A stretch of 64,000 bases of DNA from Gillisia hiemivivida. GTDB lineage: Bacteria > Bacteroidota > Bacteroidia > Flavobacteriales > Flavobacteriaceae. Location of the stretch: assembly GCF_007997295.1 (NCBI RefSeq), contig NZ_VORY01000005.1, positions 124,001-188,000 of the forward strand, read 5' to 3'. Every line of letters starts with the position of its first letter. Within the stretch, counting starts at the first letter, position 1. The position numbers were made by a program, and so were the translations under genes. The notes under the pieces are model-generated. The model was not told the origin of the DNA, searched no databases, and worked only from the letters and a program-made list of their open reading frames with translations. Positions 24,537 through 59,610 of this stretch are shown here, piece after piece.

Positions 24537-24762
24537 TTTTTTTTGCTGAAGATACTAGAATAATTTCTTCGGAATAAAAAAAGTGCACTTTAACCACGCG
24601 CTTTCACAAAAGTTTATGCTTTAAAATATTTCTTACTAGCTTAGCTTTTTTCCGGCTTCCATAAGTATTTGTCATTTTAGGTCCTGATATGAATCAGATA
24701 ACTATCTTAACATGAGGATCTAGATAATTCAATTGATTTTTTTTTAAATATGAACCAATTAA

Positions 24763-28459: not shown

Positions 28460-28503
28460 CTGACAATCCTCATATTATCTAACATACTACCTTATTATTT
28501 TTG
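28460..28503 (+). promoter_or_regulatory. FNR-like site plus -7 box of hemN
   Basis: The site CTGACAATCCTCAT (28460-28473) has one weak position. An exact TATTTTTG box starts 36 bases after the first base of the site (28496-28503), and the ATG of hemN is 22 bases further. It has the geometry shared by all island promoters. Confidence 0.6.
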
Positions 28504-28524: not shown

Positions 28525-29889
28525 ATGAGTTCAAATTTAATTTCTAAATACAATATTGCGGGTCCTAGATACACTAGTTATCCAACTGTCCCTTACTGGG
28601 ATAATAAAAAATTCTCATTAAGGTCCTATAAAGAAACTTTAATCAGAAGTTTTAAAGAAAGTAATACCTCTGAAGGAATTAGCATATATATCCATCTTCC
28701 TTTTTGCGAAAGCCTCTGCACTTTTTGTGGGTGTAATAAAAGAATTACTAAAAATCATTCCGTAGAAATACCTTATCTCAAATCTGTAATCAAAGAGTGG
28801 GAAATGTATTGTGATCTTTTGGGTGAAAGGCCGGTTATAAAAGAGCTACACTTGGGTGGAGGCACACCAACTTTTTTTTCTATCGACAATTTAAACTTAC
28901 TATTAGATGGCATTTTTAGAATTGCAAATAAAGCAGAAAATACAGAATTAAGTTTTGAAGGACATCCCAATAATACTACTAAAGAGCACTTATCTTTATT
29001 TTCTAAATTAGGATTCCAACGGGTTAGTTATGGCGTTCAGGATTATAATGAAAAGGTGCAAAAATCTATTCATAGGGTACAACCTTTCGAAAATGTAAAG
29101 AAAGTTACACAAGACGCTCGGGAAGCTGGATTTACTTCTGTTGGTCATGATATTATTTTTGGTCTGCCTTTTCAAACTAAAGAACATGTTATTCATACCA
29201 TAGAACGTACAAAAGAATTATTACCAGACAGAATTGCGTTTTATAGTTATGCTCATGTACCATGGATAAAAGGGAATGGCCAGCGCGGTTATAAAGACGA
29301 AGATCTTCCAACTGCAGAGGAAAAGCGTGAACAATACGAAATTGGTAAAAAGATGTTGCTAGAAGCTGGCTATTTTGAGATCGGAATGGATCATTTTGCG
29401 CTTTGCACAGATAGTCTTTACCAAGCTATTGAAAACAAAACATTGCACCGAAATTTCATGGGCTATACCACCTCCAAAACCCGAGTAATGATTGGACTTG
29501 GAGTGTCGGCCATAAGTGACAGCTGGTACGGATTTGCTCAAAATGTAAAAGGAGTGGAGGAATATCAGAATTTGATTGAAAATAACATTTCCGCGATATA
29601 TAGAGGTCATATTCTTACAAAGGAGGATCTGGTAATTAGAAAACACATCCTTAACCTTATGTGTAACTTTAAAACAACTTGGGTCACGAGGGAAGATTAT
29701 TTTGAGGATCTGCCAGAGGTTATTCATTCTTTAAATGAGATGTATGACGATGGATTGGTGGAATTCGATACTAATTTTTTAAAAATCACAGAACGCGGAA
29801 AACCATTTGTGAGAAATATATGTATGGCTTTTGATATGCGATTACAAAGAAATAAGCCGGAAACCCAACTATTCTCTATGACAGTTTAG
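28525..29889 (+). CDS. hemN: Oxygen-independent coproporphyrinogen III oxidase
   Basis: This 454-residue radical-SAM enzyme makes protoporphyrinogen IX in heme synthesis without oxygen. The [4Fe-4S]/SAM site is C61-x3-C65-x2-C68 with C70 next to it (PFCESLCTFCGC), preceded by IYIHLPF. HLGGGTPTF, SFEGHPNNTT and SVGHDIIFGLPFQT follow, all typical of true HemN rather than HemW. A HemN-type C-terminal domain ends the protein. An FNR-like site upstream fits its need under low oxygen, when heme must be made for the cbb3 oxidase and cytochromes encoded further on. Confidence 0.96.
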   Translation: MSSNLISKYNIAGPRYTSYPTVPYWDNKKFSLRSYKETLIRSFKESNTSEGISIYIHLPFCESLCTFCGCNKRITKNHSVEIPYLKSVIKEWEMYCDLLGERPVIKELHLGGGTPTFFSIDNLNLLLDGIFRIANKAENTELSFEGHPNNTTKEHLSLFSKLGFQRVSYGVQDYNEKVQKSIHRVQPFENVKKVTQDAREAGFTSVGHDIIFGLPFQTKEHVIHTIERTKELLPDRIAFYSYAHVPWIKGNGQRGYKDEDLPTAEEKREQYEIGKKMLLEAGYFEIGMDHFALCTDSLYQAIENKTLHRNFMGYTTSKTRVMIGLGVSAISDSWYGFAQNVKGVEEYQNLIENNISAIYRGHILTKEDLVIRKHILNLMCNFKTTWVTREDYFEDLPEVIHSLNEMYDDGLVEFDTNFLKITERGKPFVRNICMAFDMRLQRNKPETQLFSMTV

Positions 29890-31770: not shown

Positions 31771-33033
31771 TTGCAGAAAACATTTCAGGATAAAGGTCAA
31801 ATTTTCAATATCTTATTCGAGGCTGCCTCCGAAGGGATTATTGTGGTTGATAGTACCCAACACATAGTTGCGGTAAATGTAGCTGCAGAAAATATGTTTG
31901 GATATGAAAAAGGGGAGTTGAACGAACAACACTTGAATTTATTAATTCCACCTAAATACCATACGAATCATCATCACCATTTCGAGGGTTTTCTAGAACA
32001 CAGCGAGAAACGGCAAATGGGTCATGGTAGAGTCCTTCATGGAATTAAAAAAGATGGTTCCTTATTTCCAGTTGAAGCAGGCCTAAACCCATTTAAGAAG
32101 GATGGACAGGAATTTGTGATGTCTCTAATAATAGACATTAGCGTACGAATGGAAACCGAGCGCCAAATACATGACCTCAACTCTCATCTAGAGGAAAAAA
32201 TAAAAATCAGAACGGGAGAACTTAGTGAAAGCATTAATAAATTAGAAGAACTGAATCAAAATCTTCAAGCTGAGGCGAAGAGAAGAAAAGCTGCAGAAGA
32301 AAAAATTAAAGATGCCCTACAGAAAGAGATAGAGCTTAGTGAATTAAAGACAAAATTCCTCTCCTTGGTTTCTCATGAATTTAAAACTTCATTAAGCGGT
32401 ATACTGACCTCTGCGACACTGGCTGAAAAATACACTGAGAATGAACAGCAAGATAAGCGGGAGAAACATTTAGGCACCATTCGTAATAAAGTGCATTATC
32501 TTAATAACATCCTGAACGACTTCCTATCTATAGAAAGGCTAGACAGTGGGAAAGGCCAATATAAATATGCTTCTTTTAGCCTCAAAAGGCTCATAAATGA
32601 AGTAGTTTATAACGCAAATGTTACCTTGAAGGATGGGCAGGAAATTTTATATCCAAAAGATATTAAAGATGAAGAACTTTATCAGGATGAAAAGATCCTG
32701 GAGTTGGTACTCTCAAATATTTTAGGAAATGCTATTAAGTATTCCCCAGAAAACACTACCATTAAGCTTGACGTCTTACTAAAAGACAATAAAATTATTT
32801 TTAGCATTAAAGATCAAGGAAGAGGTATACCTAAAGAAGATCAAAAACATATTTTTGAGAGATATTTTCGAGCAGAAAATGCTTTGCTGGATCAGGGAAC
32901 TGGTATAGGCTTAAATATTTCTAAAACCCATTTGGTAAATATGGGTGGACAAATAAGTTTTTTAAGTGAAGAAAATAAAGGAACCCTATTTAAAATAGAA
33001 GTTCCAATATTAAACCCCGGAAATAGCATTTAG
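31771..33033 (+). CDS. Soluble PAS sensor histidine kinase, FixL-like (candidate heme oxygen sensor)
   Basis: The 420-residue protein has no membrane segment. Residues ~8-125 are a PAS domain, ~130-190 a coiled coil, then HisKA (SHEFKTSL, phospho-His202) and HATPase (NILGNAIKYSP, DQGRGIP, GTGIGLNISK). The PAS loop aligns without gaps to rhizobial FixL as I recall it: the heme-binding His200 falls on His67 (in the HHHH run) and the oxygen-gating Arg220 on Arg87 (in GHGR), with the same 20-residue distance, then KDGSLFP. This makes heme binding plausible but unproven, because many PAS domains share GxGR-KDG. The start is TTG; no ATG occurs upstream in the open frame and the next Met is within PAS. 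The response regulator starts directly after the stop codon. Confidence 0.85.
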   Translation: MQKTFQDKGQIFNILFEAASEGIIVVDSTQHIVAVNVAAENMFGYEKGELNEQHLNLLIPPKYHTNHHHHFEGFLEHSEKRQMGHGRVLHGIKKDGSLFPVEAGLNPFKKDGQEFVMSLIIDISVRMETERQIHDLNSHLEEKIKIRTGELSESINKLEELNQNLQAEAKRRKAAEEKIKDALQKEIELSELKTKFLSLVSHEFKTSLSGILTSATLAEKYTENEQQDKREKHLGTIRNKVHYLNNILNDFLSIERLDSGKGQYKYASFSLKRLINEVVYNANVTLKDGQEILYPKDIKDEELYQDEKILELVLSNILGNAIKYSPENTTIKLDVLLKDNKIIFSIKDQGRGIPKEDQKHIFERYFRAENALLDQGTGIGLNISKTHLVNMGGQISFLSEENKGTLFKIEVPILNPGNSI

Positions 33034-34077
33034 ATGAAAAAAATATTGCTGATAGAAGACGATGTCACTGTTCGTGAAAATACGGCAGAACTACTTGAGC
33101 TTTCGGAGTATGAAGTCGTGACCTCCAACGATGGGCGTCAGGGTTGTATCAAAGCACAAGCAGAACTGCCAGATATTATCATTTGCGATATTATGATGCC
33201 AGAAATGGATGGTTATGGGGTGCTTCAGGAACTTAGTGAGAACCCTAAAACAGCCAATATCCCATTTATTTTTCTTTCAGCTAAAACAGAGCATAAAGAT
33301 ATTCGGAGGGGAATGGATCTTGGTGCAGATGATTATCTTACTAAGCCATTTGAAGAGGTAGATCTATTAAGTGCCATAGAAAGCAGATTAGCGAAAGTTG
33401 CAATATTAAATTCTTTTCAAAAAAATCAAAATTCCCCAGAAGAGCCTGGGAAATTAAAAAATATTTCGGAGTTCCGTGAACATTTTGAGTCTAATCCAAT
33501 ATTGAATTTTAAAAAAGGAGAATTTGTATACGAAAAAGGAAAACACTCAAATTTCTTTTATCTAGTTAAAAGTGGGGTTGTAAAAACGCACCATAATGAT
33601 GATAAAGGGAAAGAACTTATTACCTATTTATACAAATCTGGCGATTTCCTCGGAAATGCTAGTGAAGATCCTCAAGCTTCAAATTCCGATTATGCCACGG
33701 CAATGGAAAACACCGAGCTATATGCCATCTCGCGAGAACATTTTTATGAAATATTGTTGCAAAACCCACATATCAGCATCAAACTAGTAGAGATTCTGAA
33801 TAACAATCTCGTTGGGCTTAAAAAACAATTAGTGAATATGGCATATGGTTCTGTTAGAAAAAAAACAGCAAATACAATTCTGCTTTTTGCTGAAAAAATA
33901 GAAAAACATCCTTTACAATCTATTCGGATATCCCGCTCCGATCTTGCTAGTGTAGCTGGCATGGCCGCAGAAAGTTTGATAAGAACTCTGTCTGAATTTA
34001 AAAAAGAGGGTCTAATAGAGATTGAAGGAAGAAACATTAAATTACTAAACTCACAAGCTTTAAGAACTATTGATTAA
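33034..34077 (+). CDS. Response regulator fused to a Crp/Fnr regulator (REC-cNMP-HTH)
   Basis: The 347-residue protein begins with a complete receiver domain: acidic EDD at 8-10, phospho-Asp52 in ICDIMMPEMDG, and Lys104 in LTKPF. A cyclic-nucleotide-binding-like beta-barrel follows at about 150-265 (FKKGEFVYEKGKHSNFFYL), then a Crp-type winged helix at about 280-340. No FNR iron-sulfur cysteines are present, so sensing should come from phosphorylation by the kinase encoded just upstream. The recognition helix reads GMAAESLIRTL. Against FNR (E-x-x-S-R) it keeps Glu313 and Arg317 but has Ile316 for Ser. That fits a site keeping TGA but changing the outermost T, as seen in the island promoters. 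Confidence 0.9.
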   Translation: MKKILLIEDDVTVRENTAELLELSEYEVVTSNDGRQGCIKAQAELPDIIICDIMMPEMDGYGVLQELSENPKTANIPFIFLSAKTEHKDIRRGMDLGADDYLTKPFEEVDLLSAIESRLAKVAILNSFQKNQNSPEEPGKLKNISEFREHFESNPILNFKKGEFVYEKGKHSNFFYLVKSGVVKTHHNDDKGKELITYLYKSGDFLGNASEDPQASNSDYATAMENTELYAISREHFYEILLQNPHISIKLVEILNNNLVGLKKQLVNMAYGSVRKKTANTILLFAEKIEKHPLQSIRISRSDLASVAGMAAESLIRTLSEFKKEGLIEIEGRNIKLLNSQALRTID

Positions 34078-34136
34078 TAATTTACTGAATCAGTTTTGCT
34101 TCCAATATTAAACACTTATTCTCTTTGAAATGGCCA

Positions 34137-34175
34137 CGTCACCCTGTCCCGAAGCCTCGGGAGTTTCATGGTCTC
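34137..34175. repeat. Partial CGTCA-type dispersed repeat
   Basis: CGTCACCCTGTCCCGAAGCC and the following CTCGGGAG resemble the left half of the repeat at 464-558. Confidence 0.5.
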
Positions 34176-34287
34176 AAACCCTTATAAGTAGGTTGCTGAA
34201 ACAAAACCGGTACTTATCGACAACATTACACAAAAATTGGGTACTGTTAGTTGAAAATTACTCGGTGGAACAAAAGCGGACTATCAA

Positions 34288-34429
34288 TCAAGAACCTCGG
34301 GGCTAGCCCACGAGGTATGTCCCGAGGGTTCGGGAGGAAAAACACCTTTTAAATTCGAGGCAAGACCGCCTGAATGAAATTCTTTTCGGGCAGGCCTCGG
34401 GGGAATTAAACCCTCAATGAGGGATTAAA
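34288..34429 (+). repeat. Three-hairpin dispersed repeat, copy D
   Basis: It runs from TCAAGAACCTCGGGGCTAGC to CCCTCAATGAGGGATTAAA. It ends 12 bases before the FNR-like site of the universal stress gene, the same distance as for copy C and hemN. Confidence 0.9.
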
Positions 34430-34440
34430 TAAGCCCGTAA

Positions 34441-34484
34441 CTGATTTTCATCATTTTTAAGCGTGAGCACTTGTTCTAATTTTG
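34441..34484 (+). promoter_or_regulatory. FNR-like site plus -7 box of the universal stress gene
   Basis: The site CTGATTTTCATCAT (34441-34454) is followed at an offset of exactly 36 by a perfect TAATTTTG box (34477-34484), 25 bases before the ATG. Confidence 0.75.
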
Positions 34485-34509: not shown

Positions 34510-35316
34510 ATGAATGTCTTAATTCTGACAGATTTTTCAGAAGTATCGGAGAACGCCAGCAGGTATGCAATAGATTTTCTAAGAGAAACTCCCTCTACAA
34601 TTTCACTACTTAATATTCAGGATATTAATTTTAATATGGAGTCTAGCGAAAAGCTAGGCAAGAAAATGCTTTTAATATCTGAAAAAATGCATGCTGCCAT
34701 AGAAAATTTAGAAATTTATAGTACAAATCCCGAACATAAATTTCATCTCAATCTATCACTGGACAATTTAATTACGGCGGTTAGACGTTGTGTTGAAGAA
34801 AAAAATATAGATCTTATTTTCATTGGTGCGGCTAGTCAAAAAGAACATAAGCATCCTTTACTTGGTAATCATGCATATGAAATAATTCAAAAAATAAAGT
34901 GCAATATTTTGGCGGTACCTGGTAAGGTCCAATTTGTTAATCCTAAACGTATGATCTTACCAATAGATTACTCTGTACTTTCAGAAAGAAAATCGTTTCA
35001 AGTTCTAAGAAATCGAAACTATGTGAAAAGTGAGAGTTTCACCATAGTAAATGTTAACGAGAATGAAAATTACTGTTTGAAGGAGAAAATGATCCAAGAG
35101 TTATGGGAAAGTGATTCTGAAGAGAATATTGACTTTAGATTTTTAAATAAAAACGCGTTTTTCAACTCAGACTTTTTACTGGAAATTCAAGATAAATTTG
35201 ATGTTATTGTTATTCTTGGTAAGAATCTGAGTATTTCTGATAAGCTTCTAAATAGCCGTTATGGGTTGTTTTCCAAGATAAGTAACAAATTACCGATCTT
35301 GATTCTACATGAATAA
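34510..35316 (+). CDS. Universal stress protein (two UspA halves)
   Basis: The 268-residue cytoplasmic protein has two tandem Usp-like folds. The first half is clear: MNVLILTDFSEVSENAS at the start and IDLIFIGAASQKEHKHPLLG with the adjacent CNILAVPG strand. The second half (RMILPIDYSVLS to LPILILHE) is more degenerate and lacks an obvious G-2x-G-9x-G ATP loop. Usp proteins help cells endure growth arrest and low energy. The upstream FNR-like site puts it under the same control as respiration genes, as for several Usp proteins in other bacteria. A weak terminator-like hairpin lies at 35497-35539. Confidence 0.85.
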   Translation: MNVLILTDFSEVSENASRYAIDFLRETPSTISLLNIQDINFNMESSEKLGKKMLLISEKMHAAIENLEIYSTNPEHKFHLNLSLDNLITAVRRCVEEKNIDLIFIGAASQKEHKHPLLGNHAYEIIQKIKCNILAVPGKVQFVNPKRMILPIDYSVLSERKSFQVLRNRNYVKSESFTIVNVNENENYCLKEKMIQELWESDSEENIDFRFLNKNAFFNSDFLLEIQDKFDVIVILGKNLSISDKLLNSRYGLFSKISNKLPILILHE

Positions 35317-35603: not shown

Positions 35604-35987
35604 TTAAGAAGTTCTGCTTTGGTAGATTCTTAAAAAAAGATGTGTAGACATTTTTCTGGCATTATCTTTAAGGCGCTGAGCCATTTCGCCTTCAAAAAGC
35701 TCATCTATAGTTTGGAACCAGAGGTTCATCCAGATTCCAAAATGATATTCTTTAATACTATTATTGTGCTCCTTATCTACCTTAGCATGAGCTATTGCGG
35801 GATTTCCACGAAACCCACCAGTATAAAAAAGGTTCGTTTCCCAAAAATCTGTAAGCCTTTCCAGATGCTCATCCCAATTTTGAATGTTATTAAAAAAATA
35901 ACCTATTTCTTCATTTTTCCGGACTTTACTGTAAAAGCTTAATACAAGTTTATTTACATCTGCTCGGTTCTTTAGATCCTCTTTCAT
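35604..35987 (-). CDS. Group III truncated hemoglobin
   Basis: The 127-residue globin begins with LVLSFYSKVRKNEEIGYFF and continues with the family segment HLERLTDFWETNLFYTGGF. IAHAKVDKEH carries the proximal His and FGIWMNLWFQTIDELFEG forms the G helix. The length is typical of trHb group III (trHbP/Ctb type), whose members handle oxygen or nitric oxide at low oxygen. It follows a small membrane protein gene by three bases and would be transcribed from the FNR-like promoter at 36297-36340. NO detoxification during denitrification is a reasonable but untested role. Confidence 0.92.
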   Translation of the reverse strand: MKEDLKNRADVNKLVLSFYSKVRKNEEIGYFFNNIQNWDEHLERLTDFWETNLFYTGGFRGNPAIAHAKVDKEHNNSIKEYHFGIWMNLWFQTIDELFEGEMAQRLKDNARKMSTHLFLRIYQSRTS

Positions 35988-35990
35988 GTA

Positions 35991-36272
35991 TTATAATATA
36001 TTCAGAAGTATAAATGAAGTACTAACCAAGATACTCGCAATTAAAGAATTAAAAACAAATTTGGCTTTTAATTGTGCAAGAACAGAGGCATTATACCACA
36101 TACAAACTACTACAACAATCCCTAGCTGGATCATATCTATTACAGTATGGCCATTCATTAAGATAAGCATAGCTGCGATTGAACCTATACAACTGGAAAC
36201 AAGAATTCCCGTTGTTGCTCCTGCAAAATAATCCTGTTTAAATTCTGATAGTTGTTTTTGATAAATTGTCAT
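35991..36272 (-). CDS. Small membrane protein co-transcribed with the truncated hemoglobin
   Basis: The 93-residue protein has a short polar N-terminus (MTIYQKQLSEFKQDY) and three hydrophobic helices at about residues 17-38, 46-67 and 74-92 (for example LIASILVSTSFILLNIL). I do not recognise a family. It directly precedes the hemoglobin gene and has its own FNR-like promoter, so a role in low-oxygen or NO physiology is likely by context only. Confidence 0.7.
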   Translation of the reverse strand: MTIYQKQLSEFKQDYFAGATTGILVSSCIGSIAAMLILMNGHTVIDMIQLGIVVVVCMWYNASVLAQLKAKFVFNSLIASILVSTSFILLNIL

Positions 36273-36296: not shown

Positions 36297-36340
36297 TAAA
36301 TTTAAATTTTAGTTGGCTCAAGAAATATGACAGAGATCAG
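36297..36340 (-). promoter_or_regulatory. FNR-like site plus -7 box of the membrane protein-trHb unit
   Basis: On the reverse strand the site reads CTGATCTCTGTCAT (36340-36327) and a TAAATTTA box begins 36 bases later (36304-36297), 24 bases before the ATG. Confidence 0.65.
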
Positions 36341-40545: not shown

Positions 40546-40589
40546 ATGACAGCCGTCATTTTTTAAAGTCTGCAAATCCATAAAATTCG
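40546..40589 (+). promoter_or_regulatory. FNR-like site plus weak -7 box of ccoI
   Basis: The site ATGACAGCCGTCAT (40546-40559) is a perfect palindrome. The box at offset 36, AAAATTCG, is only a 4 of 6 match. The ATG of ccoI is 22 bases beyond it. Confidence 0.6.
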
Positions 40590-40610: not shown

Positions 40611-43013
40611 ATGGTGACTTGTTATCATTGTGGAGAAAACTGTATAGATGATATTATACATTATGATGAAAAGTCGTTTTGTTGTTCAGGCTGTAAAACT
40701 GTCTTTGATATTCTCAATTCAAATGATCTCAGTTATTATTACGACTTGGAGAGATCTCCTGGCACAAGTCCTAAAAGTCTGGAAGGGAAATATGATTACT
40801 TGGAAAATGCAGATATCGTAGAAAAATTATTAGAGTTTAACGATCTCGATACTCAGGTTATTTCCTTTGTTATCCCAAGCATTCATTGTAGTTCCTGTAT
40901 CTGGATCTTGGAAAATCTGAATAAATTAAATAATGCCATCAAGAGCTCTCAGGTAGATTTCCCAAAAAGATCTATTCGGGTAAGTTATAATTCCGATAGC
41001 ATTTCCTTAAAGGAATTGGTGATATTATTAAATAGAATTGGGTACGAACCTTCTATTTCGCTGGAGAATTACAATAAAAAAGCTAGTGTAATAGACCGAA
41101 GCCTGATATACAAACTAGGAGTTGCGGGTTTTGCATTTGGCAATATTATGTTTCTGTCTTTTCCTGAATATTTTGAGGTAGAGGAATTTTGGCTGGATCA
41201 ATTTAAAGTTTTGTTCCGCTGGCTGATGTTTGGCTTTTCTATACCTGTAGTCTTCTATTCGGGTTCAGATTATTTTGTTTCAGCATATAAAGGATTGCGG
41301 GCTAGAATACTGAATATAGATGTTCCTATTGCATTAGGGATCGCTGTATTGTTTTTAAGAAGTTCTGCGGAAATTATTCTGAATTTGGGTACCGGTTTTT
41401 TCGATAGCCTAAGTGGATTGGTTTTCTTTTTACTTCTCGGAAGATATTTTCAGCAGAAAACTTATGCCTTCCTTTCTTTTGACAGAGATTACAAATCCTA
41501 TTTTCCAATTGCGGTCACTCGCTTAATTAATTCAATAGAAGAACAGGTCCAAGTTTATAAAATAAAAAAAGGAGACCGTATCTTAATTAGAAACGAAGAA
41601 TTGCTCCCTATGGATGCTGTTCTTATAAAAGGAAAGGCTTCTATAGATTATAGTTTTGTGACAGGCGAAGCCGAGCCTGTAGTCAAAAAAAGTGGAGATA
41701 AACTTTTCGCCGGAGGACGTCAACAAGGCGGTATAATAGAAATTGAAGCCTTAAAAGCAGTGCAGCAAAGTTATCTTACCCAACTTTGGAGTAATGAGAT
41801 CTTTAGTAAAAATAAGCCAAGTAGCTTTCAAAGCCTTACTAATCAAATAAGCAAACGTTTTACCATTGCGGTTTTAAGCATCGCAATACTTTCGGGCATA
41901 TTCTGGCTTATTTATGATCCTTCAAAAGCCCTGAATGTTTTTACAGCAGTGCTAATTATTGCCTGTCCTTGCGCTATTGCATTAGCAGCCCCATTTACCC
42001 TGGGAAATCTTCTTCGCATTTATGGCAGGGAGAAATTTTACTTGAAAGAAGCATCGGTAATCGAGCAAATGGCGAAAATTGACACAATCGTGTTCGATAA
42101 AACCGGAACCATAACTACCAACAAACGAAATAGCATTTCCTATGAAGGTATAGAACTAACCAGATCTGAAGAGGAAATACTAGGTGGTAGTCTAAGGGCT
42201 TCCAATCATCCACTGAGTCGTTCTTTATATCAGCTTCTGAAAAAGAACAATATTGTTACACCCGATGAATTTCTGGAACACACTGGAAAAGGTATTGAAA
42301 CGACCTATAAGGATACCAGTTTTAAAATTGGATCTGCCGATTTTGTAAAGATCAAATCAATTTCCAATAATTCAGTTGAGCTGAAGAAACCTGAGAAAAC
42401 TTCTGTCCATATTAGCAGTAACAATATTTATAAAGGCTGTTTTACATTCAGCAATGCCTATCGTGAAGGGCTTTCAAAATTATTCGAAGATCTAAAAACT
42501 AAAAAAGACCTCATCATCCTTTCTGGAGATAATGATGGTGAGCGTGAAAATTTAGAGCTCATGCTGCCAAGGGATACTAAAATGTTTTTCAATCAGCAAC
42601 CAGGACATAAACTTGAATTTATAAAAAAACTTCAGCAAAACGGCAAAACTGTAATGATGGTTGGCGACGGACTGAATGATGCCGGAGCCTTAGCACAAAG
42701 TGATGTTGGAATTGTTGTTTCTGAAGATATAAATGTCTTCTCCCCTGCTTGTGATGGAATTTTGGATGCTTCGGTATTTAAAAACTTGGAGGATTATATA
42801 GATCTTTCTCAAAATGGGATCAAGATCATCAAATGGGCATTTTTGCTTTCACTTTTGTACAATCTAATTGGTCTTTCCTTTGCCGTGACAGGACATTTAA
42901 GACCAGTGGTTGCAGCTATTTTGATGCCGTTGAGCAGTATAAGTATCGTAGTCTTTACTAGTGTTGCCACACACCTATTCAGTAGGAAAATATCAAGGGA
43001 TCTAAAATATTAA
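40611..43013 (+). CDS. ccoI: Copper-transporting P-type ATPase CcoI (cbb3 oxidase assembly)
   Basis: The 800-residue P1B-ATPase delivers copper for cbb3 oxidase assembly. It starts with a Cys-rich metal-binding domain (CYHCGENC and FCCSGCKTVF). A HMA-like domain with HCSSCIWILENL near residue 97 is next, then membrane helices, TGEAEPV, and the ion-path motif CPCAIALAAP near 451. The phosphorylation site DKTGT is at about 496 and the hinge GDGLNDAGAL near 686. The N-terminal layout and its place directly before the cco genes identify CcoI/FixI rather than a detoxifying CopA. The FNR-like palindrome upstream matches its role. Confidence 0.95.
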   Translation: MVTCYHCGENCIDDIIHYDEKSFCCSGCKTVFDILNSNDLSYYYDLERSPGTSPKSLEGKYDYLENADIVEKLLEFNDLDTQVISFVIPSIHCSSCIWILENLNKLNNAIKSSQVDFPKRSIRVSYNSDSISLKELVILLNRIGYEPSISLENYNKKASVIDRSLIYKLGVAGFAFGNIMFLSFPEYFEVEEFWLDQFKVLFRWLMFGFSIPVVFYSGSDYFVSAYKGLRARILNIDVPIALGIAVLFLRSSAEIILNLGTGFFDSLSGLVFFLLLGRYFQQKTYAFLSFDRDYKSYFPIAVTRLINSIEEQVQVYKIKKGDRILIRNEELLPMDAVLIKGKASIDYSFVTGEAEPVVKKSGDKLFAGGRQQGGIIEIEALKAVQQSYLTQLWSNEIFSKNKPSSFQSLTNQISKRFTIAVLSIAILSGIFWLIYDPSKALNVFTAVLIIACPCAIALAAPFTLGNLLRIYGREKFYLKEASVIEQMAKIDTIVFDKTGTITTNKRNSISYEGIELTRSEEEILGGSLRASNHPLSRSLYQLLKKNNIVTPDEFLEHTGKGIETTYKDTSFKIGSADFVKIKSISNNSVELKKPEKTSVHISSNNIYKGCFTFSNAYREGLSKLFEDLKTKKDLIILSGDNDGERENLELMLPRDTKMFFNQQPGHKLEFIKKLQQNGKTVMMVGDGLNDAGALAQSDVGIVVSEDINVFSPACDGILDASVFKNLEDYIDLSQNGIKIIKWAFLLSLLYNLIGLSFAVTGHLRPVVAAILMPLSSISIVVFTSVATHLFSRKISRDLKY

Positions 43014-43424: not shown

Positions 43425-43468
43425 ATGATTTTGGTCATTTTTTGAAGTAGCCTAGCCAAATACTTTTA
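43425..43468 (+). promoter_or_regulatory. FNR-like site plus -7 box of the ccoS-ccoNO-ccoQ-ccoP operon
   Basis: The site ATGATTTTGGTCAT (43425-43438) is followed at offset 36 by TACTTTTA (43461-43468), 18 bases before the ATG of ccoS. Confidence 0.75.
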
Positions 43469-43485: not shown

Positions 43486-43680
43486 ATGAATATTATTTAC
43501 ATGTTGCTAGGAGTAAGCGTAGTTGTAGCTCTAATTTTCTTCGTTGCATTTATTGTTTCAGTCAAAAAAGGGCAGTATGACGATGTCTATACTCCTTCAG
43601 TTCGTATGCTTTTTGAAGACGAACTAGTTAAACCTAACCCAGATAAAAATCAATCTGATTCTAAAGAGAAATCCAACTAA
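43486..43680 (+). CDS. ccoS: cbb3-type cytochrome oxidase assembly protein CcoS
   Basis: The 64-residue protein has one N-terminal membrane helix (IIYMLLGVSVVVALIFFVAF) followed by the conserved juxtamembrane KKGQYDDVYTPSVRMLFED segment of CcoS, needed for cofactor insertion into the oxidase. It is the first gene behind the FNR-like promoter and ends two bases before ccoNO. Confidence 0.93.
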   Translation: MNIIYMLLGVSVVVALIFFVAFIVSVKKGQYDDVYTPSVRMLFEDELVKPNPDKNQSDSKEKSN

Positions 43681-43682
43681 CT

Positions 43683-45878
43683 ATGGAATTACAGCAGTTT
43701 TATTACGATAATAAGGTCGTAAAGAAGTTTATTATCGCCACTATGTTTTGGGGTTTAATAGGTATGAGTATAGGTCTATTATTAGCCCTTATGTTCTTAT
43801 TTCCAAACATTACCGATGGAATTCCATGGTTGAGTTTTGGTCGTTTAAGACCCTTACATACCAATGCAGTGATATTTGCCTTTGTAGGAAATGCCATTTT
43901 TGCAGGGGTTTATTATTCCAGTCAGCGATTGTTAAAAGCAAGGATGTGGAGCGATGCTCTTAGTAATTTTAACTTCTGGGGGTGGCAGGCAATTATTGTT
44001 GCTGCTGCTATTACACTCCCAATGGGTTTTACCTCATCTAAAGAATATGCAGAGCTAGAATGGCCTATAGATATTGCTATAACATTGGTATGGGTTGCTT
44101 TTGGAGCAAACCTTATAGGAACCATGATCAAAAGGCGACAACGACACTTGTATGTAGCAATTTGGTTTTACCTCGCAACTTTTGTTACCGTTGCCGTGCT
44201 TCATATAATTAATAATATTGAAATCCCTGTAAGTGCTTTCAAAAGTTATTCTGTGTATTCAGGAGTTCAAGATGCGCTTGTACAATGGTGGTACGGGCAT
44301 AACGCGGTGGCATTTTTTCTTACTACTCCGTTTCTTGGGTTAATGTATTATTTTGTGCCAAAAGCGGCAAATCGTCCCGTTTATTCTTATAGGCTTTCCA
44401 TTATCCATTTTTGGTCGCTCATCTTCATCTATATATGGGCTGGTCCTCATCACTTATTATATACTTCTTTACCAGATTGGGCACAAAACCTTGGAGTTGC
44501 CTTTTCAATAATGCTACTTTTTCCATCTTGGGGAGGGATGATCAATGGATTGCTAACCTTGCGTGGAGCTTGGGATAAAGTTAGAGTAGATCCGGTTTTA
44601 AAATTTATGGTGGTTGCAATTACTGGTTATGGGATGGCCACTTTTGAAGGCCCTTTGCTTTCACTCAAAAATGTAAACGCCATTGCGCACTATAGCGATT
44701 GGATTATTGCACACGTTCACGTTGGCGCCTTAGCCTGGAATGGATTTTTGACTTTTGGTATGCTATACTGGATGGTACCAAGATTATTCAAAACTAAATT
44801 ATGGTCTGTAAAATTAGCCAATGTCCATTTTTGGATAGGAACGCTGGGTATAATTATGTATGCATTACCAATGTATGTCGCTGGCTTCCTTCAAGCTTCT
44901 ATGTGGAAACAATTTAATCCTGATGGAACCTTAACTTACGGAAACTTTTTGGAAACAGTTACAGAAATTATACCGATGTACTGGATGCGTGCCATTGGAG
45001 GTAGTCTTTACATCGTGGGAGCGATCGTAATGTTGTATAACATCATCAAAACCGCAAAACAAGGTAGCGCAGTAGAAGATGAACTAGCTGAAGCCGCAGC
45101 TCTTACCCGTGTAACCATTAAGCGTGTTAAAGGTGAAGCTTACCATAGCTGGTTAGAAAGAAGACCTGTTAAATTGACCATTTTCGCCACTATTGCTATC
45201 CTTATTGGAGGGGCAGCTCAAATTATTCCTTCTTTATTGGTAGATGACTACGTGCCAATAATTTCCAGCGTAAAACCGTATACACCATTAGAACTGGAGG
45301 GCCGCGATATTTATATCCGCGAAGGTTGTGTGGGTTGTCATTCACAAATGGTGAGACCTTTTAGAAGTGAGGTAGAGCGCTACGGTGAATATTCCAAAGC
45401 TGGAGAATACCGTTATGACTTTCCTTTTCTATGGGGAAGTAAACGTACCGGCCCAGATTTGCATAGGATTGGTCAAAAATATTCCGATAACTGGCACTTA
45501 AATCACATGTACGATCCGCAAAGTACTTCAGCAGGTTCAATTATGCCATCATACCAATGGATTATTAAAGATGAGTTAGATAAGAGCGACACCCAAACTA
45601 AAATGAGAGCTATGCAAACGCTAGGCGTGCCTTACTCTGATGAAGAAGTTGCCAATGCCGAAAAATGGATGTTAGAGCAGGGGACTAAAATAGAAGAGAA
45701 TCTATATTCCGATCCAGATTTTGCTTCTACTTATGAAGCCGATAAAAAGTACGCTTCAGAAAATGATCTGGAATTTACCGAAATGCGTAATAGAGAGATC
45801 GTTGCGCTCATCGCATACCTTCAACGCTTAGGTACCGATATTAAAGCGAAAGACTTACAGGAAATTTCTAATAATTAA
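43683..45878 (+). CDS. ccoNO: cbb3-type cytochrome c oxidase, fused subunits I and II (CcoNO)
   Basis: This 731-residue fusion is typical of Bacteroidetes. Residues ~1-480 are the twelve-helix CcoN core with heme/CuB His ligands in segments such as PLHTNAVIFAFVGN, WWYGHNAVAFFLT, GPHHLLY and IAHVHVGALAWNG. After a linker, a membrane helix near 495-515 and a CcoO part follow, with GCVGCHSQMVRPF near residue 546 (CxxCH heme c), KRTGPDLHRIG and MPSYQW (Met ligand). The complex reduces oxygen with high affinity and pumps protons in the inner membrane. Confidence 0.97.
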   Translation: MELQQFYYDNKVVKKFIIATMFWGLIGMSIGLLLALMFLFPNITDGIPWLSFGRLRPLHTNAVIFAFVGNAIFAGVYYSSQRLLKARMWSDALSNFNFWGWQAIIVAAAITLPMGFTSSKEYAELEWPIDIAITLVWVAFGANLIGTMIKRRQRHLYVAIWFYLATFVTVAVLHIINNIEIPVSAFKSYSVYSGVQDALVQWWYGHNAVAFFLTTPFLGLMYYFVPKAANRPVYSYRLSIIHFWSLIFIYIWAGPHHLLYTSLPDWAQNLGVAFSIMLLFPSWGGMINGLLTLRGAWDKVRVDPVLKFMVVAITGYGMATFEGPLLSLKNVNAIAHYSDWIIAHVHVGALAWNGFLTFGMLYWMVPRLFKTKLWSVKLANVHFWIGTLGIIMYALPMYVAGFLQASMWKQFNPDGTLTYGNFLETVTEIIPMYWMRAIGGSLYIVGAIVMLYNIIKTAKQGSAVEDELAEAAALTRVTIKRVKGEAYHSWLERRPVKLTIFATIAILIGGAAQIIPSLLVDDYVPIISSVKPYTPLELEGRDIYIREGCVGCHSQMVRPFRSEVERYGEYSKAGEYRYDFPFLWGSKRTGPDLHRIGQKYSDNWHLNHMYDPQSTSAGSIMPSYQWIIKDELDKSDTQTKMRAMQTLGVPYSDEEVANAEKWMLEQGTKIEENLYSDPDFASTYEADKKYASENDLEFTEMRNREIVALIAYLQRLGTDIKAKDLQEISNN

Positions 45879-52256: not shown

Positions 52257-52955
52257 ATGGAATTCAAAACAGCAGATTTCGCACCTACCAATGGTAACAG
52301 AATTAGTAATTTTTCCTTTGATGAGATAGGAGATGACCATTTTTATACTGGCTTAGAAACTCCCATGAGATCGGATGCATTTGAAATGTCTGATCTAGAA
52401 AAAAAAGAAAAAATCTCCGATTTGTTTGCACAGATAATGGATGTTATGGGACTGGATCTTACAGATGATTCGCTAAGAGGGACGCCAAATAGGGTTGCTA
52501 AAATGTATATTGAAGAAATCTTCTCTGGACTTAATCCTGCTAATAAGCCTAAGATCGCACTTTTTGAAAATAAATATCAGTATAATCAAATGTTGGTTGA
52601 AAAGAATATTACATTTTATTCTAATTGCGAACATCACTTCGTTCCAATAATTGGTCAAGCTCACATAGCTTACGTGTCTTCTGGTAAAGTTATTGGGCTT
52701 TCTAAGCTCAATAGAATTGTACAGTATTATGCAAAACGCCCACAAGTACAAGAGCGATTAACAAATCAAATAGCAATGGAGCTAAAGGCTATATTAAATA
52801 CAGAGGATATTGCCGTTATCATTGACGCAAAGCATTTATGTGTTTCGTCTCGTGGAGTTAAAGATGATACCTCTGCTACCGTTACCACTTATTATGGTGG
52901 CGTATTTGAAAAACCACACAAAATTGCTGAATTACAAAACTATTTAAACCAATAA
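52257..52955 (+). CDS. folE: GTP cyclohydrolase I
   Basis: The 232-residue cytoplasmic enzyme converts GTP to dihydroneopterin triphosphate. It shows DSLRGTPNRVAKMYIEEIFSG-like sequence at residues ~77-97 and the zinc/catalytic segment NCEHHFVPIIGQAHIAY near 123. It also has GLSKLNRIVQYYAKRPQVQE near 142 and a final HLCVSSRGVKDD with the third zinc Cys. The first ~40 residues are a variable tail. A partial copy lies at 54906-55485. With the PTPS gene it could supply a reduced pterin, for instance for the aromatic amino acid hydroxylase at 3911-5668. Confidence 0.95.
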   Translation: MEFKTADFAPTNGNRISNFSFDEIGDDHFYTGLETPMRSDAFEMSDLEKKEKISDLFAQIMDVMGLDLTDDSLRGTPNRVAKMYIEEIFSGLNPANKPKIALFENKYQYNQMLVEKNITFYSNCEHHFVPIIGQAHIAYVSSGKVIGLSKLNRIVQYYAKRPQVQERLTNQIAMELKAILNTEDIAVIIDAKHLCVSSRGVKDDTSATVTTYYGGVFEKPHKIAELQNYLNQ

Positions 52956-53347: not shown

Positions 53348-53391
53348 CTGATTACAGTCATATTTTACCAGCTTATCTTCTTTTATCTTTA
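53348..53391 (+). promoter_or_regulatory. FNR-like site plus -7 box of the alcohol dehydrogenase gene
   Basis: The site CTGATTACAGTCAT (53348-53361) is followed at offset 36 by TATCTTTA (53384-53391), 35 bases before the ATG at 53427. Confidence 0.7.
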
Positions 53392-53426: not shown

Positions 53427-54530
53427 ATGTCAAGTAAAAACGTATCAAATAAAGAGGTTCATTCAAATGCGGCTTCTTCCAACACTAATAGTACCATGAA
53501 GGGGCTTGTTTATGATGGGCCAGGGAAAATAGGATTCAAAAATGTTCCAAAACCAGAAATTAAAAATGCGACAGATGCCATTGTGAAAATGGTTAAAACC
53601 ACCATTTGTGGGACAGATTTAGGCATATTGCATGGCAAAACGCCTTCTGTAAAACCAGGAACTACCTTAGGTCATGAAGGTGTTGGAGTGATTGAAGAAG
53701 TTGGTAGTGGTGTGAGTAATTTTAAGAAAGGTGATCGTGTAATTATTTCATGCATTACCGCATGTGGAAGTTGTGAGTATTGTAAAAAGCAAATGTATAG
53801 CCATTGCAAAGATGGAGGTTGGATCTTGGGGCATATTATTAATGGAACCCAAGCAGAGTATGTTCGTATTCCGCATGCAAATAATAGTCTTTATATTGCT
53901 CCTGAAGGGGTAGATGATGAAGCCTTGGTAATGTTGAGTGATATTTTGCCTACAGGCCTTGAGATTGGCGTGATCAATGGTTGTGTAAAACCAGGTAATA
54001 CTATTGCGATTGTTGGTGCCGGCCCAATTGGTATGTCTGCCCTTCTTACCGCACAATTTTATTCTCCTGCCAAAATTTACATGATAGATATAGATGAAAA
54101 TCGGTTGAAACTAGCAAAAAAATGGGGAGCTACAGACACCATTAATTCTGGAACTGAGGATGCCATTAAAAAAATACTTTCTGAAACAGCTGATGGTGTA
54201 GATGTAGCTATTGAAGCCGTAGGAGCTCCTGTAACATTTGATATCTGTCAACAGATCGTACGTCCTGGTGGGAATATTGCCAATATAGGAGTACATGGAA
54301 AAAGTGTAGATCTTAAAATTCAAGATCTGTGGATTAAAAATATTACTATCACCATGGGATTAGTGAACACCAACACAACACCTATGCTTCTTAAAACAGT
54401 GACCTCTAAAAAAATCCAGCCAGAAAAATTAATCACACATCACTTTAAATTGGACGAGATTATGAGAGCTTATGAAGTTTTTGGTAATGCATCTGAAGAA
54501 AAAGCGTTAAAAATAATTCTGACTAACTAA
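53427..54530 (+). CDS. Zinc-dependent alcohol dehydrogenase family protein
   Basis: The 367-residue medium-chain dehydrogenase has the catalytic zinc Cys in KTTICGTDLGI, GHEGVGVIEEVGSG near 90, and structural zinc ligands in CGSCEYCKKQMYSHC near 112-126. The NAD(P) loop VGAGPIGMSA lies near 192 and is followed by YMIDIDENRL, whose Asp suggests NAD. The first 23 residues are an extra Ser/Asn-rich tail; an in-frame ATG at 53496 would remove it. I keep 53427 because the mapped -7 box gives a 33-base leader to it. An FNR-like site upstream suggests a fermentative or redox-balancing role under low oxygen. Confidence 0.9.
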   Translation: MSSKNVSNKEVHSNAASSNTNSTMKGLVYDGPGKIGFKNVPKPEIKNATDAIVKMVKTTICGTDLGILHGKTPSVKPGTTLGHEGVGVIEEVGSGVSNFKKGDRVIISCITACGSCEYCKKQMYSHCKDGGWILGHIINGTQAEYVRIPHANNSLYIAPEGVDDEALVMLSDILPTGLEIGVINGCVKPGNTIAIVGAGPIGMSALLTAQFYSPAKIYMIDIDENRLKLAKKWGATDTINSGTEDAIKKILSETADGVDVAIEAVGAPVTFDICQQIVRPGGNIANIGVHGKSVDLKIQDLWIKNITITMGLVNTNTTPMLLKTVTSKKIQPEKLITHHFKLDEIMRAYEVFGNASEEKALKIILTN

Positions 54531-54913: not shown

Positions 54914-55485
54914 AATGTCTGATCTAGAAAAAAAAGAAAAAATCTCCGATTTGTTTGCACAGATAATGGATGTTATGGGACTGGATCTTACAGATGATTC
55001 GCTAAGAGGGACGCCAAATAGGGTTGCTAAAATGTATATTGAAGGAATCTTCTCTGGACTTAATCCTGCTAATAAGCATAAGATCGCACTTTTTGAAAAT
55101 AAATATCAGTATAATCAAATGTTGGTTGAAAAGAATATTACATTTTATTCTAATTGCGAACATCACTTCGTTCCAATAATTGGTCAAGCTCACATAGCTT
55201 TCGTGTCTTCTGGTAAAGTTATTGGGCTTTCTAAGCTCAATAGAATTGTACAGTATTATGTAAAACGCCCACAAGTACAAGAGCGATTAACAAATCAAAT
55301 AGCAATGGAGCTAAAGGCTATATTAAATACAGAGGATATCGCGGTTATCATAGACGCAAAGCATTTATGTGTTGCGTCTCGCGGAGTTAAAGATGATACC
55401 TCTGCTACCGTTACCACTTATTATGGTGGCGTATTTAAAAAAACCACACAAAATTGCTGAATTATAAAACTATTTAAACCAATAA
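54906..55485 (+). pseudogene. folE: Partial folE copy (5'-truncated, frameshifted)
   Basis: From GCATTTGAAATG onward the sequence copies the intact folE from 52377 with only scattered changes (for example Glu to Gly and Pro to His in the region after RVAKMYIE). The first ~40 codons are missing, so the frame starts at an internal ATG (54915). Near the end an A-tract has one base more than in the intact gene, which shifts the frame and ends the product at TGA 55458 with KKTTQNC instead of the normal C-terminus. The catalytic CEHH segment is preserved, so residual activity cannot be fully excluded. Position 55485 is the stop of the original frame. Confidence 0.85.
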
Positions 55486-56331: not shown

Positions 56332-56375
56332 ATGATCAACATCATATTTTACCGTTGGCTTTACTGATATTTTTG
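56332..56375 (+). promoter_or_regulatory. FNR-like site plus -7 box of the nos cluster
   Basis: The site ATGATCAACATCAT (56332-56345) fits the consensus at every position. A perfect TATTTTTG box starts at offset 36 (56368-56375), 23 bases before the ATG of the cytochrome gene. Confidence 0.8.
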
Positions 56376-56398: not shown

Positions 56399-56899
56399 AT
56401 GAGAAGTCTAACTAAAATTATTTTTTTCTTCGGAATAACGCTCCTGTTAAGTTGTGGCGGTAAAGAAGAAAAAAAGGAAAACGAAGAAGTTAAATTGGGA
56501 AACTATGAAAAAAAAGAAGTAGTAAACCAAGATAAAAAGCAGCCAGAAGTAGCGCTAATTGACATGTCTAATAAGGGAATTGGTCCGGTGAAAAATCTGG
56601 AACTTCCTAATACCATAGACCAAGGAATGGTAACTAAAGGAAAAATGAATTTTGATGCCAAATGTCTTGCTTGTCATAAAACTCATAAAAAGTTTATAGG
56701 ACCAGCTCCTGTAGGTATATTGGATAGAAGATCTCCAGAATGGGTAATGAATATGATATTAAATCCAAGTGAAATGGTTCAAAAAGATCCAATCGCTAGG
56801 CAATTGCTTATAGATCATAATGGTTCACCTATGGCAGATCAAGGCTTAACAGAAGAAGAAGCACGTCAAATCCTAGAATACTTCAGAACCCTGAAATAA
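56399..56899 (+). CDS. Cytochrome c lipoprotein at the head of the nos cluster
   Basis: The 166-residue protein has a lipoprotein signal (FFFGITLLLSCGG, Cys near 19), a Lys/Glu-rich linker and one cytochrome c domain. The heme motif CLACHKTHKKFIGPAP starts near residue 90 and the Met ligand is probably in GSPMADQGLT. It is the first gene behind the FNR-like promoter. In clade II nos clusters such small cytochromes pass electrons to NosZ, so this is a plausible electron donor. Confidence 0.88.
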   Translation: MRSLTKIIFFFGITLLLSCGGKEEKKENEEVKLGNYEKKEVVNQDKKQPEVALIDMSNKGIGPVKNLELPNTIDQGMVTKGKMNFDAKCLACHKTHKKFIGPAPVGILDRRSPEWVMNMILNPSEMVQKDPIARQLLIDHNGSPMADQGLTEEEARQILEYFRTLK

Positions 56900-57648: not shown

Positions 57649-59610
57649 ATGAGAAAATCAATAAATATATCAATATTAGTTCTCCTAATAACCGGATTAT
57701 TTAGTTGCAATACTAATGATTCTAAAGATGGGGATAAAGGGGCTTTAGCTTCTAATGCAGCTGAAAAAGTATATGTTGCACCAGGTGAACATGATGAGTT
57801 CTACGCTTTTGTTTCTGGTGGGTACAGTGGTAACTTAACTGTATATGGATTGCCTTCAGGTAGAATGTTCAAAGAAATTCCTGTTTTTTCGCAATTCCCA
57901 ACCAGTGGATATGGTTATTCTGAAGAAACCAAACCTATGCTAAACACTTCTCATGGTTTTATTCCATGGGATGATGCTCACCATCCAGATATTTCACAAA
58001 CCAGTGGGAAGTTAGATGGACGCTGGGTTTTTATCAATGGAAACAATACTCCTAGGATTGCTAAAATAGATCTAAAGACTTTTGAAACTACAGAAATTAT
58101 TGAAGTTCCGAATTCTGCGGGTAACCATAGTTCTTCTTTTGTAACTGAAAACACAGAATATGTAGTTGCAGGTACAAGATTTTCGGTTCCAGTACCGCAA
58201 CAGGATATTGCAATCAATGAATACAAAGGAAAGTTCAAAGGAGCCCTTTCTTTTATTAGCGTAGATCCAGAAGATGGCATAATGAGCATCAAGTTTCAAC
58301 TTATGATGCCTGGATTTAATTATGACCTTTCTCACCCAGGACGTGGAAAATCTCATGGCTGGTTCTTTTTTACCACTTATAATACTGAAGAAGCGAATTC
58401 TTTGTTAGAGGTAAATGCTTCACAAAATGACAAAGATTTTATTGCAGCGGTAAACTGGAAAAAAATTGAAGAATATGTGAACAATGGTGGTGGTAAAATG
58501 ATGCCAGCGAACTATGCTCATAATGTTTATGATGATGATACGCATACCGCTACTTCTACCATGATGAAAGAGGTATTGGTAGTAGATCCTTTGGAAGTTC
58601 CAGGAGCTGTATTCTTGCTTCCTACTCCTAAATCCCCACACGGGGTTGATATAGATCCATCTGGTGAATATATTATTGGAAATGGAAAACTTTCTGCCGA
58701 TTTAACCATACACTCGTTCACAAAAATGATTAGTGCCATCGAAAACAAAAAATTTGACGGTGATGCCTATGGAATTCCGATCTTGAAATTCGAAGAAATA
58801 TTGAGAGGAACAGTAAAACAAGCTGGATTAGGCCCACTTCATACCGAATTTGATGGTAAAGGAAATGGTTATACCACATTCTTTATCTCTTCAGAACTGG
58901 TAAAATGGGATTTGGAAACCCTTGAGGTGATAGACCGTAAACCCAACTATTATTCTGTAGGACACGTGATGATCCCTGGAGGAAATTCTGCACATCCCTT
59001 TGGTAAGTATGCAGTTTCAATGAACAAAATTACAAAAGACCGTTATTTACCAACAGGGCCAGAATTAGAGCACTCGGCACAATTATTTGATATTACAGGA
59101 GAAAAAATGGAGCTTTTATTGGATTTCCCAACTCATGGGGAACCTCACTATGCTGCTGGAATTCCGGCAAGTATTATCAAAGAAAATTCTCAAAAAATCT
59201 ATAAACTTGCCGAGAACGAGCATGAATACGCCGCGATTGCCAACGGAGATGCCAGAGTGGAACGGGATGGAAACGAAGTTCATGTTTATATGACCATGAT
59301 TCGTAGCCACTTTACCCCAGATAATATTGAAGGAATTAAAGTTGGGGATAAAGTGTATTTCCACATCACAAATCACGAGCAGGATTTTGATGTACCTCAC
59401 GGTTTTGCTATGATTGGTGCTAATAGTTCAGGCTTGCTTATTATGCCCGGACAAACCAAAACAACGGTATGGGAACCTAAGGAAGTGGGAGTATGGCCTT
59501 TCTATTGTACAGATTTCTGTTCAGCACTGCACCAAGAAATGCAAGGTTATGTTAGAGTTTCTCCAAAAAGTTCCAAGCTTGAACTTAGCTGGTCACTTGG
59601 GGAAGATTAA
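57649..59610 (+). CDS. nosZ: Nitrous-oxide reductase NosZ (clade II, lipoprotein-type signal)
   Basis: The 653-residue multicopper enzyme reduces N2O to N2. It starts with a Sec lipoprotein signal (LVLLITGLFSC, no twin Arg), typical of clade II NosZ. The seven-bladed propeller carries CuZ His ligands in DDAHHPDIS, HPGRGKSHGWFFF, NYAHNVYDD, SPHGVDIDPSG, GPLHTEFDGKGN, NSAHPFGKY and HGEPHYA. The C-terminal cupredoxin domain holds CuA: FYCTDFCSALHQEMQGY near residue 622, with the preceding His in VPHGF. The FNR-like promoter at 56332 lies two genes upstream; repeats H and I flank the gene. Confidence 0.98.
   Translation: MRKSINISILVLLITGLFSCNTNDSKDGDKGALASNAAEKVYVAPGEHDEFYAFVSGGYSGNLTVYGLPSGRMFKEIPVFSQFPTSGYGYSEETKPMLNTSHGFIPWDDAHHPDISQTSGKLDGRWVFINGNNTPRIAKIDLKTFETTEIIEVPNSAGNHSSSFVTENTEYVVAGTRFSVPVPQQDIAINEYKGKFKGALSFISVDPEDGIMSIKFQLMMPGFNYDLSHPGRGKSHGWFFFTTYNTEEANSLLEVNASQNDKDFIAAVNWKKIEEYVNNGGGKMMPANYAHNVYDDDTHTATSTMMKEVLVVDPLEVPGAVFLLPTPKSPHGVDIDPSGEYIIGNGKLSADLTIHSFTKMISAIENKKFDGDAYGIPILKFEEILRGTVKQAGLGPLHTEFDGKGNGYTTFFISSELVKWDLETLEVIDRKPNYYSVGHVMIPGGNSAHPFGKYAVSMNKITKDRYLPTGPELEHSAQLFDITGEKMELLLDFPTHGEPHYAAGIPASIIKENSQKIYKLAENEHEYAAIANGDARVERDGNEVHVYMTMIRSHFTPDNIEGIKVGDKVYFHITNHEQDFDVPHGFAMIGANSSGLLIMPGQTKTTVWEPKEVGVWPFYCTDFCSALHQEMQGYVRVSPKSSKLELSWSLGED

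Follow-up and report, generated by a model that had tools for sequence, protein, structure and literature searches.

Rhizobial FixL-FixJ-FixK brings together a heme kinase, a phospho-receiver and a Crp/Fnr module acting on respiratory targets that include cco, as set out in PMC4999443; a figure legend there gives FnrN loss together with fixLJ-fixK gain, and the text names Caulobacteriales as the group without FnrN. An alternative, hFixL-driven route with a predicted cco target, hFixL-FxkR-FixKf of R. etli and R. leguminosarum, is described in PMC4999443 and PMC7888657. In Myxococcus, a heme-binding kinase heads NmpRSTU, a system controlling cbb3 and hemN genes, and the text of PMC11841059 names universal stress proteins 12 times. 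Here we describe a gene pair from a 64,000-nt window (contig C49:124001-188000) of the 3.73-Mb, 99.92% complete genome of Gillisia hiemivivida (G000). It consists of a soluble PAS sensor histidine kinase (HK) and a protein, called RRCRP here, that carries a receiver, a cyclic-nucleotide (cNMP) fold and a Crp/Fnr helix-turn-helix (HTH). The pair is real and conserved and is a candidate one-step low-oxygen switch. From comparison of sequences, we consider it probable that HK-RRCRP is an analogue of FixL-FixJ-FixK that shares its promoters with FnrB, our name for a stand-alone Cys-bearing Fnr-like protein of Flavobacteriaceae.

Compared with FixL-FixJ-FixK, RRCRP has the receiver and the Crp/Fnr module in one polypeptide with no transcriptional step between them, and neither part is of the FixJ or FixK type by the searches made. 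In hFixL-FxkR-FixKf, by contrast, the proteins are separate and the FxkR site is GTTACA-N4-GTTACA, while NmpRSTU has a protoglobin sensor, a multi-component relay and an NtrC-like regulator. Both genes of the pair were found as open reading frames (ORFs) where an earlier note on this DNA had placed them, with the RRCRP ATG (33034) directly abutting the TAG stop codon (33031-33033) of the kinase gene, for which the predicted start codon is TTG.

All three RRCRP domains scored above their Pfam cut-offs (Response_reg, residues 4-116; cNMP_binding, 158-244; HTH_Crp_2, 281-345), in agreement with the one-protein architecture read earlier, and a structural model (predicted local distance difference test score, pLDDT, 80.4) matched the CRP, FNR and FixK2 folds in Foldseek. 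The receiver has the acidic pair Asp9 and Asp10, the phospho-acceptor Asp52 and Lys104 of a response regulator, all invariant in 41 RRCRP rows. The Glu and Arg of the Crp/Fnr recognition helix read TGA, and in FNR the contacts to TGA and to the outer T are made by Glu209, Ser212 and Arg213. As in a FixK/FNR-type HTH, Glu313 and Arg317 of the RRCRP helix are invariant in 81 rows. The Ile of this helix, which the earlier note had related to the changed outer base of the binding sites, is likewise invariant (81/81 RRCRP and 36/36 FnrB rows) and is in step with an outer A or C, although this is a correlation only. Cys51, in the receiver, is the only conserved cysteine (81/81, others at most 22/81), leaving RRCRP without the Fnr-type set, and the phosphate-binding-cassette Arg of CRP is replaced by Glu or Asp in 81/81 rows (the column was matched by eye to CRP), for which reason control by cyclic AMP (cAMP) was rejected. 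With neither the FNR-type cysteines nor the cAMP-pocket Arg, phosphorylation would be the plain input to RRCRP. A second RRCRP, 43-55% identical, occurs in several relatives (for example G006:C38:67654-68679); G000 has one.

The suggestion that RRCRP is FixJ and FixK condensed into one protein stood in part. A receiver is indeed joined to a Crp/Fnr module, but a literal fusion by descent was rejected on receiver type, Crp tree and FixL-model score. The first matches of the RRCRP receiver were PleD and PhoB/OmpR-type receivers. The response regulator FixJ consists of a receiver and a LuxR/NarL-type HTH, whereas the output of RRCRP is HTH_Crp_2 with a cNMP fold. In a tree of a subset of rows, the Crp parts of RRCRP formed one clade (99/94). 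FnrB grouped with other Glu/Arg types beside it, with lower support (93/79), and G000's remaining three Crp/Fnr proteins fell outside both groups. The kinase reached 92.8 bits with the NCBIfam FixL model (best stretch, residues 12-169) against a cut-off of 850. These comparisons are most simply read as a single joining of a receiver to an Fnr-like module from Flavobacteriaceae, which converged on FixL-FixJ-FixK logic.

The kinase domains also lie above the Pfam cut-offs (PAS, residues 15-120, or PAS_9, 21-124; HisKA, 193-260; HATPase_c, 306-413). As noticed earlier, the PAS domain keeps the FixL spacing: His67 and Arg87 are 20 residues apart, and both align with the His and Arg of FixL and DosP in alignments to PDB entries. 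When all PDB sequences were searched with the PAS part, the top match was FixL (1d06, 1.6e-14), and 13 of the 18 entries at E<=0.01 are named FixL (7), DosP (4), heme PAS sensor or yddU; the remainder comprise the multi-sensor kinase 10jx (8.9e-10) and four weak sensory box or PAS/PAC entries (0.002-0.01). By rough alignment, His occupies the first heme position in none of the 28 other PAS matches of G000 (26 of them aligned at both positions). In an alignment of 71 kinases including that of the window, 67 have His67 and 53 have both residues. Binding of heme by the kinase PAS is therefore likely on these alignments. Foldseek matched the kinase model (pLDDT 78.7) to kinase cores and LOV kinases, with no FixL among the top 50 matches listed, and this search is uninformative on heme.

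We then considered how widely the pair is kept. The best 80 RRCRP loci listed from a scan of named bacterial genomes all carry titles of Flavobacteriaceae or related Bacteroidetes, the closest being from Gillisia (90-92% identical). In 77 of the 80, RRCRP is preceded by a homologous kinase; the other three loci begin at a contig end. In a family sample of 149 genomes from 148 genera, each at least 95% complete, RRCRP is present in 77, and the homologous kinase adjoins the best RRCRP in 77/77. No RRCRP was seen in 23 genomes of the same order but other families (G037-G059), where the best match was 2.5e-26 versus <=1.1e-48 for RRCRPs. By our reading of the listing, the next labelled gene after RRCRP is usp-like (universal stress protein) in 76 of the 80 loci. 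Many of these loci, though not all, also have cco, FixI-like, hemN-like or nos genes in the 20-kb stretch. The check proposed in the earlier note, conservation of the pair with cco/nos genes in other Flavobacteriia, thus came out in its favor: the pair is kept and these genes are often nearby.

The boxes found at these loci have the consensus MTGAYnnnnRTCAK. TGA-N6-TCA was used after the TGA-N4-TCA spacing was rejected (13 found versus 22.6 expected). Across the 80 loci, TGA-N6-TCA occurs 2.76 times per kb between genes and 0.36 times inside them, and the flanking pairs of the intergenic copies are mostly C-T, A-T, A-G and T-T, not T-A. ATGA[TC]N4[AG]TCAT has a density of 0.58 per kb between genes versus 0.013 inside, while the FNR-standard form TTGA[CT]N4[AG]TCAA, the TTGA type of FixK/FNR, is not enriched between genes (0.006 versus 0.010). 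The MTGA of the RRCRP box also differs from TTGANCNNGATCAANG given in PMC4999443. The two FNR-like boxes with a changed outer base that had been reported before cco and nos (at 43425 and 56332) are present.

TAnnTTTG is the Bacteroidetes -7 element, and about -41.5 is the class II activator position. Among 303 distinct boxes upstream of genes, TAnnTTTn stands exactly 29 bp from the box center in 179 and TAnnTTTG in 85, this being the most frequent distance to a TAnnTTT element. With TAnnTTTG taken as the -7 element, the box would lie at about -41.5. Before ccoNO, a strict box was found in 70 of 77 promoters examined, most with A or C as the distal outer base and T as the proximal one; the 63 other trinucleotides replacing TGA averaged 0.48 of 77. 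A strict box also follows RRCRP within 350 bp in 63 of 78 loci, versus 51 of 767 control ORF ends. We refer to a box, 22 bp and TAnnTTT together as a composite, with the pattern read backwards as control. G000 has 11 composites (backward control 0), and 11/11 stand 54-87 bp before an ORF. Their targets are four usp-like genes, the pair of a 93-amino-acid (aa) ORF and a globin-like ORF, ccoS-ccoNO, cytochrome c/nos, and genes for an alcohol-dehydrogenase-like protein, an aldehyde-dehydrogenase-like protein, a P-type ATPase and an outer-membrane-like protein; most of these target names were read from sequence. Unnamed proteins also recur behind composite boxes in L035-L114, in clusters of 23 (138-aa type), 20 (108-aa type) and 3; we take the 108-aa type to be ribosome-hibernation-factor-like and the cluster of 3 to be Hsp20-like.

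FnrB, which lay outside the view of the earlier note, has the same recognition helix as RRCRP and often stands some 5 kb from ccoNO in family genomes that lack RRCRP. E. coli FNR and FnrB both resemble RRCRP in the TGA-N6-TCA core, the helix Glu and Arg and class II promoters. E. coli FNR has iron-sulfur (Fe-S) cysteines; FnrB has Cys at 4, 7, 53 and 106 in 36/36 rows, whereas RRCRP lacks these four and has a receiver instead. With thresholds of E<=1e-35 for FnrB and E<=1e-150 for ccoNO, FnrB is present in 99 and ccoNO in 123 of the 149 family genomes. The 123 cco genomes divide into 45 with both regulators, 28 with RRCRP only, 50 with FnrB only and none with neither, while the 26 genomes without cco divide into 1, 3, 3 and 19, respectively (Fisher p 1.4e-18 for the association of cco with RRCRP or FnrB, the relatedness of the genomes being ignored). 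A strict box lies within 400 bp before ccoNO in 25/28 RRCRP-only genomes, in 23 of 24 FnrB-only genomes examined and in 22 of 25 double genomes examined. G000 itself lacks FnrB: an FnrB query matched nothing but RRCRP (2.8e-28) and a single remote Crp/Fnr protein (9.1e-12). In 12 of the 28 RRCRP-only cco genomes (G000, G009, G076, G087, G096, G101, G111, G118, G121, G125, G132 and G136), RRCRP is the only Crp/Fnr type with the Glu/Arg pair found, and 11 of these 12, all except G076, have a strict cco box. The 12 genomes hold 187 composites (6-36 each, backward control 0), compared with 132 in 14 FnrB-only genomes (control 4) and 11 in 14 genomes with neither regulator (control 3). The boxes thus track the presence of either regulator, and RRCRP alone appears sufficient.

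If HK-RRCRP is the sole oxygen input where FnrB is missing, the heme site is expected to be kept there, and this is what was found. His67 is kept in 31/31 FnrB-less genomes versus 30/44 FnrB-bearing ones (nominal p 0.0002), and His67 with Arg87 in 29/31 versus 26/44 (nominal p 0.001). On a quick kinase tree, all rows without His67 come from FnrB-bearing genomes. This tree has about five changes of the His67 label (three forced) and about twelve of FnrB presence (five forced). Retention of the heme site in FnrB-less genomes supports, but does not prove, a role of HK-RRCRP as their oxygen input.

The mechanism that we favor would run as follows. Oxygen, or another gas, on the PAS-bound heme would keep the soluble kinase off. 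When oxygen drops, the kinase would phosphorylate Asp52 of RRCRP. The phosphorylated RRCRP dimer would then occupy MTGAYnnnnRTCAK boxes at about -41.5 through its Crp/Fnr part, a class II arrangement from which it would activate cbb3 oxidase, dehydrogenase, nos, usp and related genes. FnrB would serve these boxes too, or in place of RRCRP, in many Flavobacteriaceae; where FnrB is missing, as in G000, HK-RRCRP would carry the regulon alone.

Several observations weigh against parts of this mechanism, beginning with the sensor. The ranking of PDB matches to the PAS part is affected by the bias of that database towards solved heme sensors. His67 is missing in 4/71 kinase rows, so that heme would not be universal, and across the 77 RRCRP-adjacent kinases it is absent from 16, that is, from 14 of the 44 FnrB-bearing genomes plus two gapped rows. 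The His67/FnrB contrast, with only about five loss events, is weaker than its p-value. Arg87 is missing in 18/71 rows, 14 of which retain His67 and four of which do not, and all these kinases still adjoin RRCRP; loss of the two residues with the neighborhood kept, which had been named as a finding that would count against the heme reading, is thus seen in part. In the alignment, Gln82, five residues before the Arg, is polar where FixL has Ile on the distal side. His85 could cap the heme; it aligns with Met95 of EcDOS/DosP, an axial heme ligand in a phosphodiesterase whose output is hydrolysis of cyclic di-GMP (PMC4263535). As a conserved sixth ligand, His85 was rejected, being present in only 38/71 rows. 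The kinases without Arg87 or His67 and the polar Gln82 would suit a kinase that senses redox, nitric oxide or flavin, or works without a cofactor, with His and Arg structural in this PAS subfamily and RRCRP still binding the boxes. We regard this as unlikely, given the invariant His67 where FnrB is missing, the heme oxygen sensors as nearest solved relatives and the absence of His from the other PAS matches of G000. In eleven RRCRP-adjacent kinases (G071, G106, G114, G133, G142 and others), Phe occupies the His67 column with a gap at 85, and the PAS of these may sense something else.

Other difficulties concern which protein reads the boxes. A further Crp/Fnr-like HTH with the Glu/Arg pair occurs in 16/28 RRCRP-only cco genomes; G076 is without any cco box, and G064 and G085 have a loose box only. 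G154, with neither regulator nor ccoNO by the searches made, has 6 composites, perhaps read by another Fnr type. Within the window, the 300 bp preceding the kinase gene contain no strict box, and autoregulation of the pair was set aside: such a box precedes the kinase in 36/71 loci, but not here. Another Crp/Fnr protein might be the true reader, with RRCRP controlling something else; FnrB, with its identical helix and its presence without RRCRP in 50 cco genomes, fits this. It nevertheless seems distinctly improbable, since FnrB is missing from G000 and the other RRCRP-only cco genomes while the boxes persist in most of them, in G000 the helix Glu is replaced by Ala, Gln or Val in the remaining three Crp/Fnr proteins, and composites abound in genomes with no Glu/Arg type found other than RRCRP. 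Still less credible to us is that the boxes of RRCRP-only genomes are unused relics of a lost FnrB regulon; loss or gain of FnrB does seem recurrent on the kinase tree, but full composites in every one of the 12 genomes with no backward controls, and differing box sequences retained at the same promoter place, speak for selection. The comparative case that RRCRP reads the boxes is strong.

Within the window, the genes after RRCRP are usp, a heavy-metal P-type ATPase, a ccoS-like ORF, fused ccoNO, ccoP-like, ccoG and, further on, a Sec-type nosZ (Table 1). We take 28525-29889 to be hemN, ORF 35604-35987 (no Pfam match) to be globin-like, the ATPase to be FixI-like and the small ORF at 43486 to be ccoS. 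ccoNO, one fused gene in G000, is split into pieces with stops in G003, G010 and G013 (L160-L162, L165-L167). The intergenic stretch 34130-34400, between RRCRP and the usp box, is GC-rich and repeat-like, with many CCTCGGG/CCCGAGG words in AT-rich surroundings. ORFs 52257-52955 and 54915-55460, presumably folE-like, have the stretch MSDLEKKEKISDLFAQI in common and flank the boxed dehydrogenase gene, a predicted target enclosed by a duplication. TGA-N6-TCA palindromes without a -7 element at 29 bp also occur near genes at 24685 (CTGATATGAATCAG), 40483 (ATGATGAATGTCAC) and 63948 (CTGACCAGCGTCAT).

Table 1. Coordinates of the gene pair, boxes and predicted target in the window (+29, distance in bp from box center).
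Feature	Position	Strand	Remarks
Box CTGACAATCCTCAT, one base off strict form	28460-28473	+	TATTTTTG at +29; precedes radical-SAM hemN-like gene 28525-29889
Soluble PAS sensor histidine kinase, FixL/DosP-type PAS	31771-33033	+	His67, Arg87, HisKA phospho-acceptor His202, HATPase_c
RRCRP: receiver, cNMP fold, Crp-type HTH	33034-34077	+	Recognition helix AESLIR; Pfam, alignments
Box CTGATTTTCATCAT	34441-34454	+	TAATTTTG at +29; 62 bp before usp
Usp-family protein, predicted direct target	34510-35316	+	Pfam and box upstream
Composite box CTGATCTCTGTCAT with TAAATTT	36298-36340	-	Precedes 93-aa ORF 35991-36272 and ORF 35604-35987
Box ATGACAGCCGTCAT	40546-40559	+	58 bp before heavy-metal P-type ATPase 40611-43013; no TAnnTTT -7 element at +29
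Box ATGATTTTGGTCAT	43425-43438	+	TACTTTTA at +29; precedes small ORF at 43486, then fused ccoNO 43683-45878
Box CTGATTACAGTCAT	53348-53361	+	TATCTTTA at +29; precedes alcohol-dehydrogenase-like gene 53427-54530
Box ATGATCAACATCAT	56332-56345	+	TATTTTTG at +29; precedes cytochrome c-type gene 56399-56899 and nosZ 57649-59610

Among the papers listed in searches of open-access literature, none was seen on a receiver-Crp/Fnr regulator or on this Flavobacteriaceae regulon, a weak negative as subscription papers lay outside the scope. A parallel is the loss of FnrN and gain of fixLJ-fixK in Alphaproteobacteria (PMC4999443), which resembles the relation of FnrB to HK-RRCRP. We lean towards the view that Flavobacteriaceae have one class II Fnr-type regulon served by two chemically different oxygen sensors, a presumably Fe-S FnrB and a heme kinase acting through a receiver-fused module, at least one of which a cbb3 genome holds. 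FnrB would have been lost repeatedly, leaving HK-RRCRP as sole oxygen input, and where both are present the kinase would be free to lose heme and take other signals.

If HK-RRCRP acts as proposed, it would be a predicted low-oxygen master switch for a large family, some members of which have Sec-dependent nosZ and are nitrous oxide sinks, and it would provide Flavobacteriaceae with a defined binding site and promoter geometry. The family would also offer a natural experiment, with a single regulon whose reader is a Cys-bearing Fnr-like protein in certain species and a heme-kinase phosphorelay elsewhere. Attaching a receiver to an Fnr-like module would then have achieved FixL-FixJ-FixK logic while saving one step.

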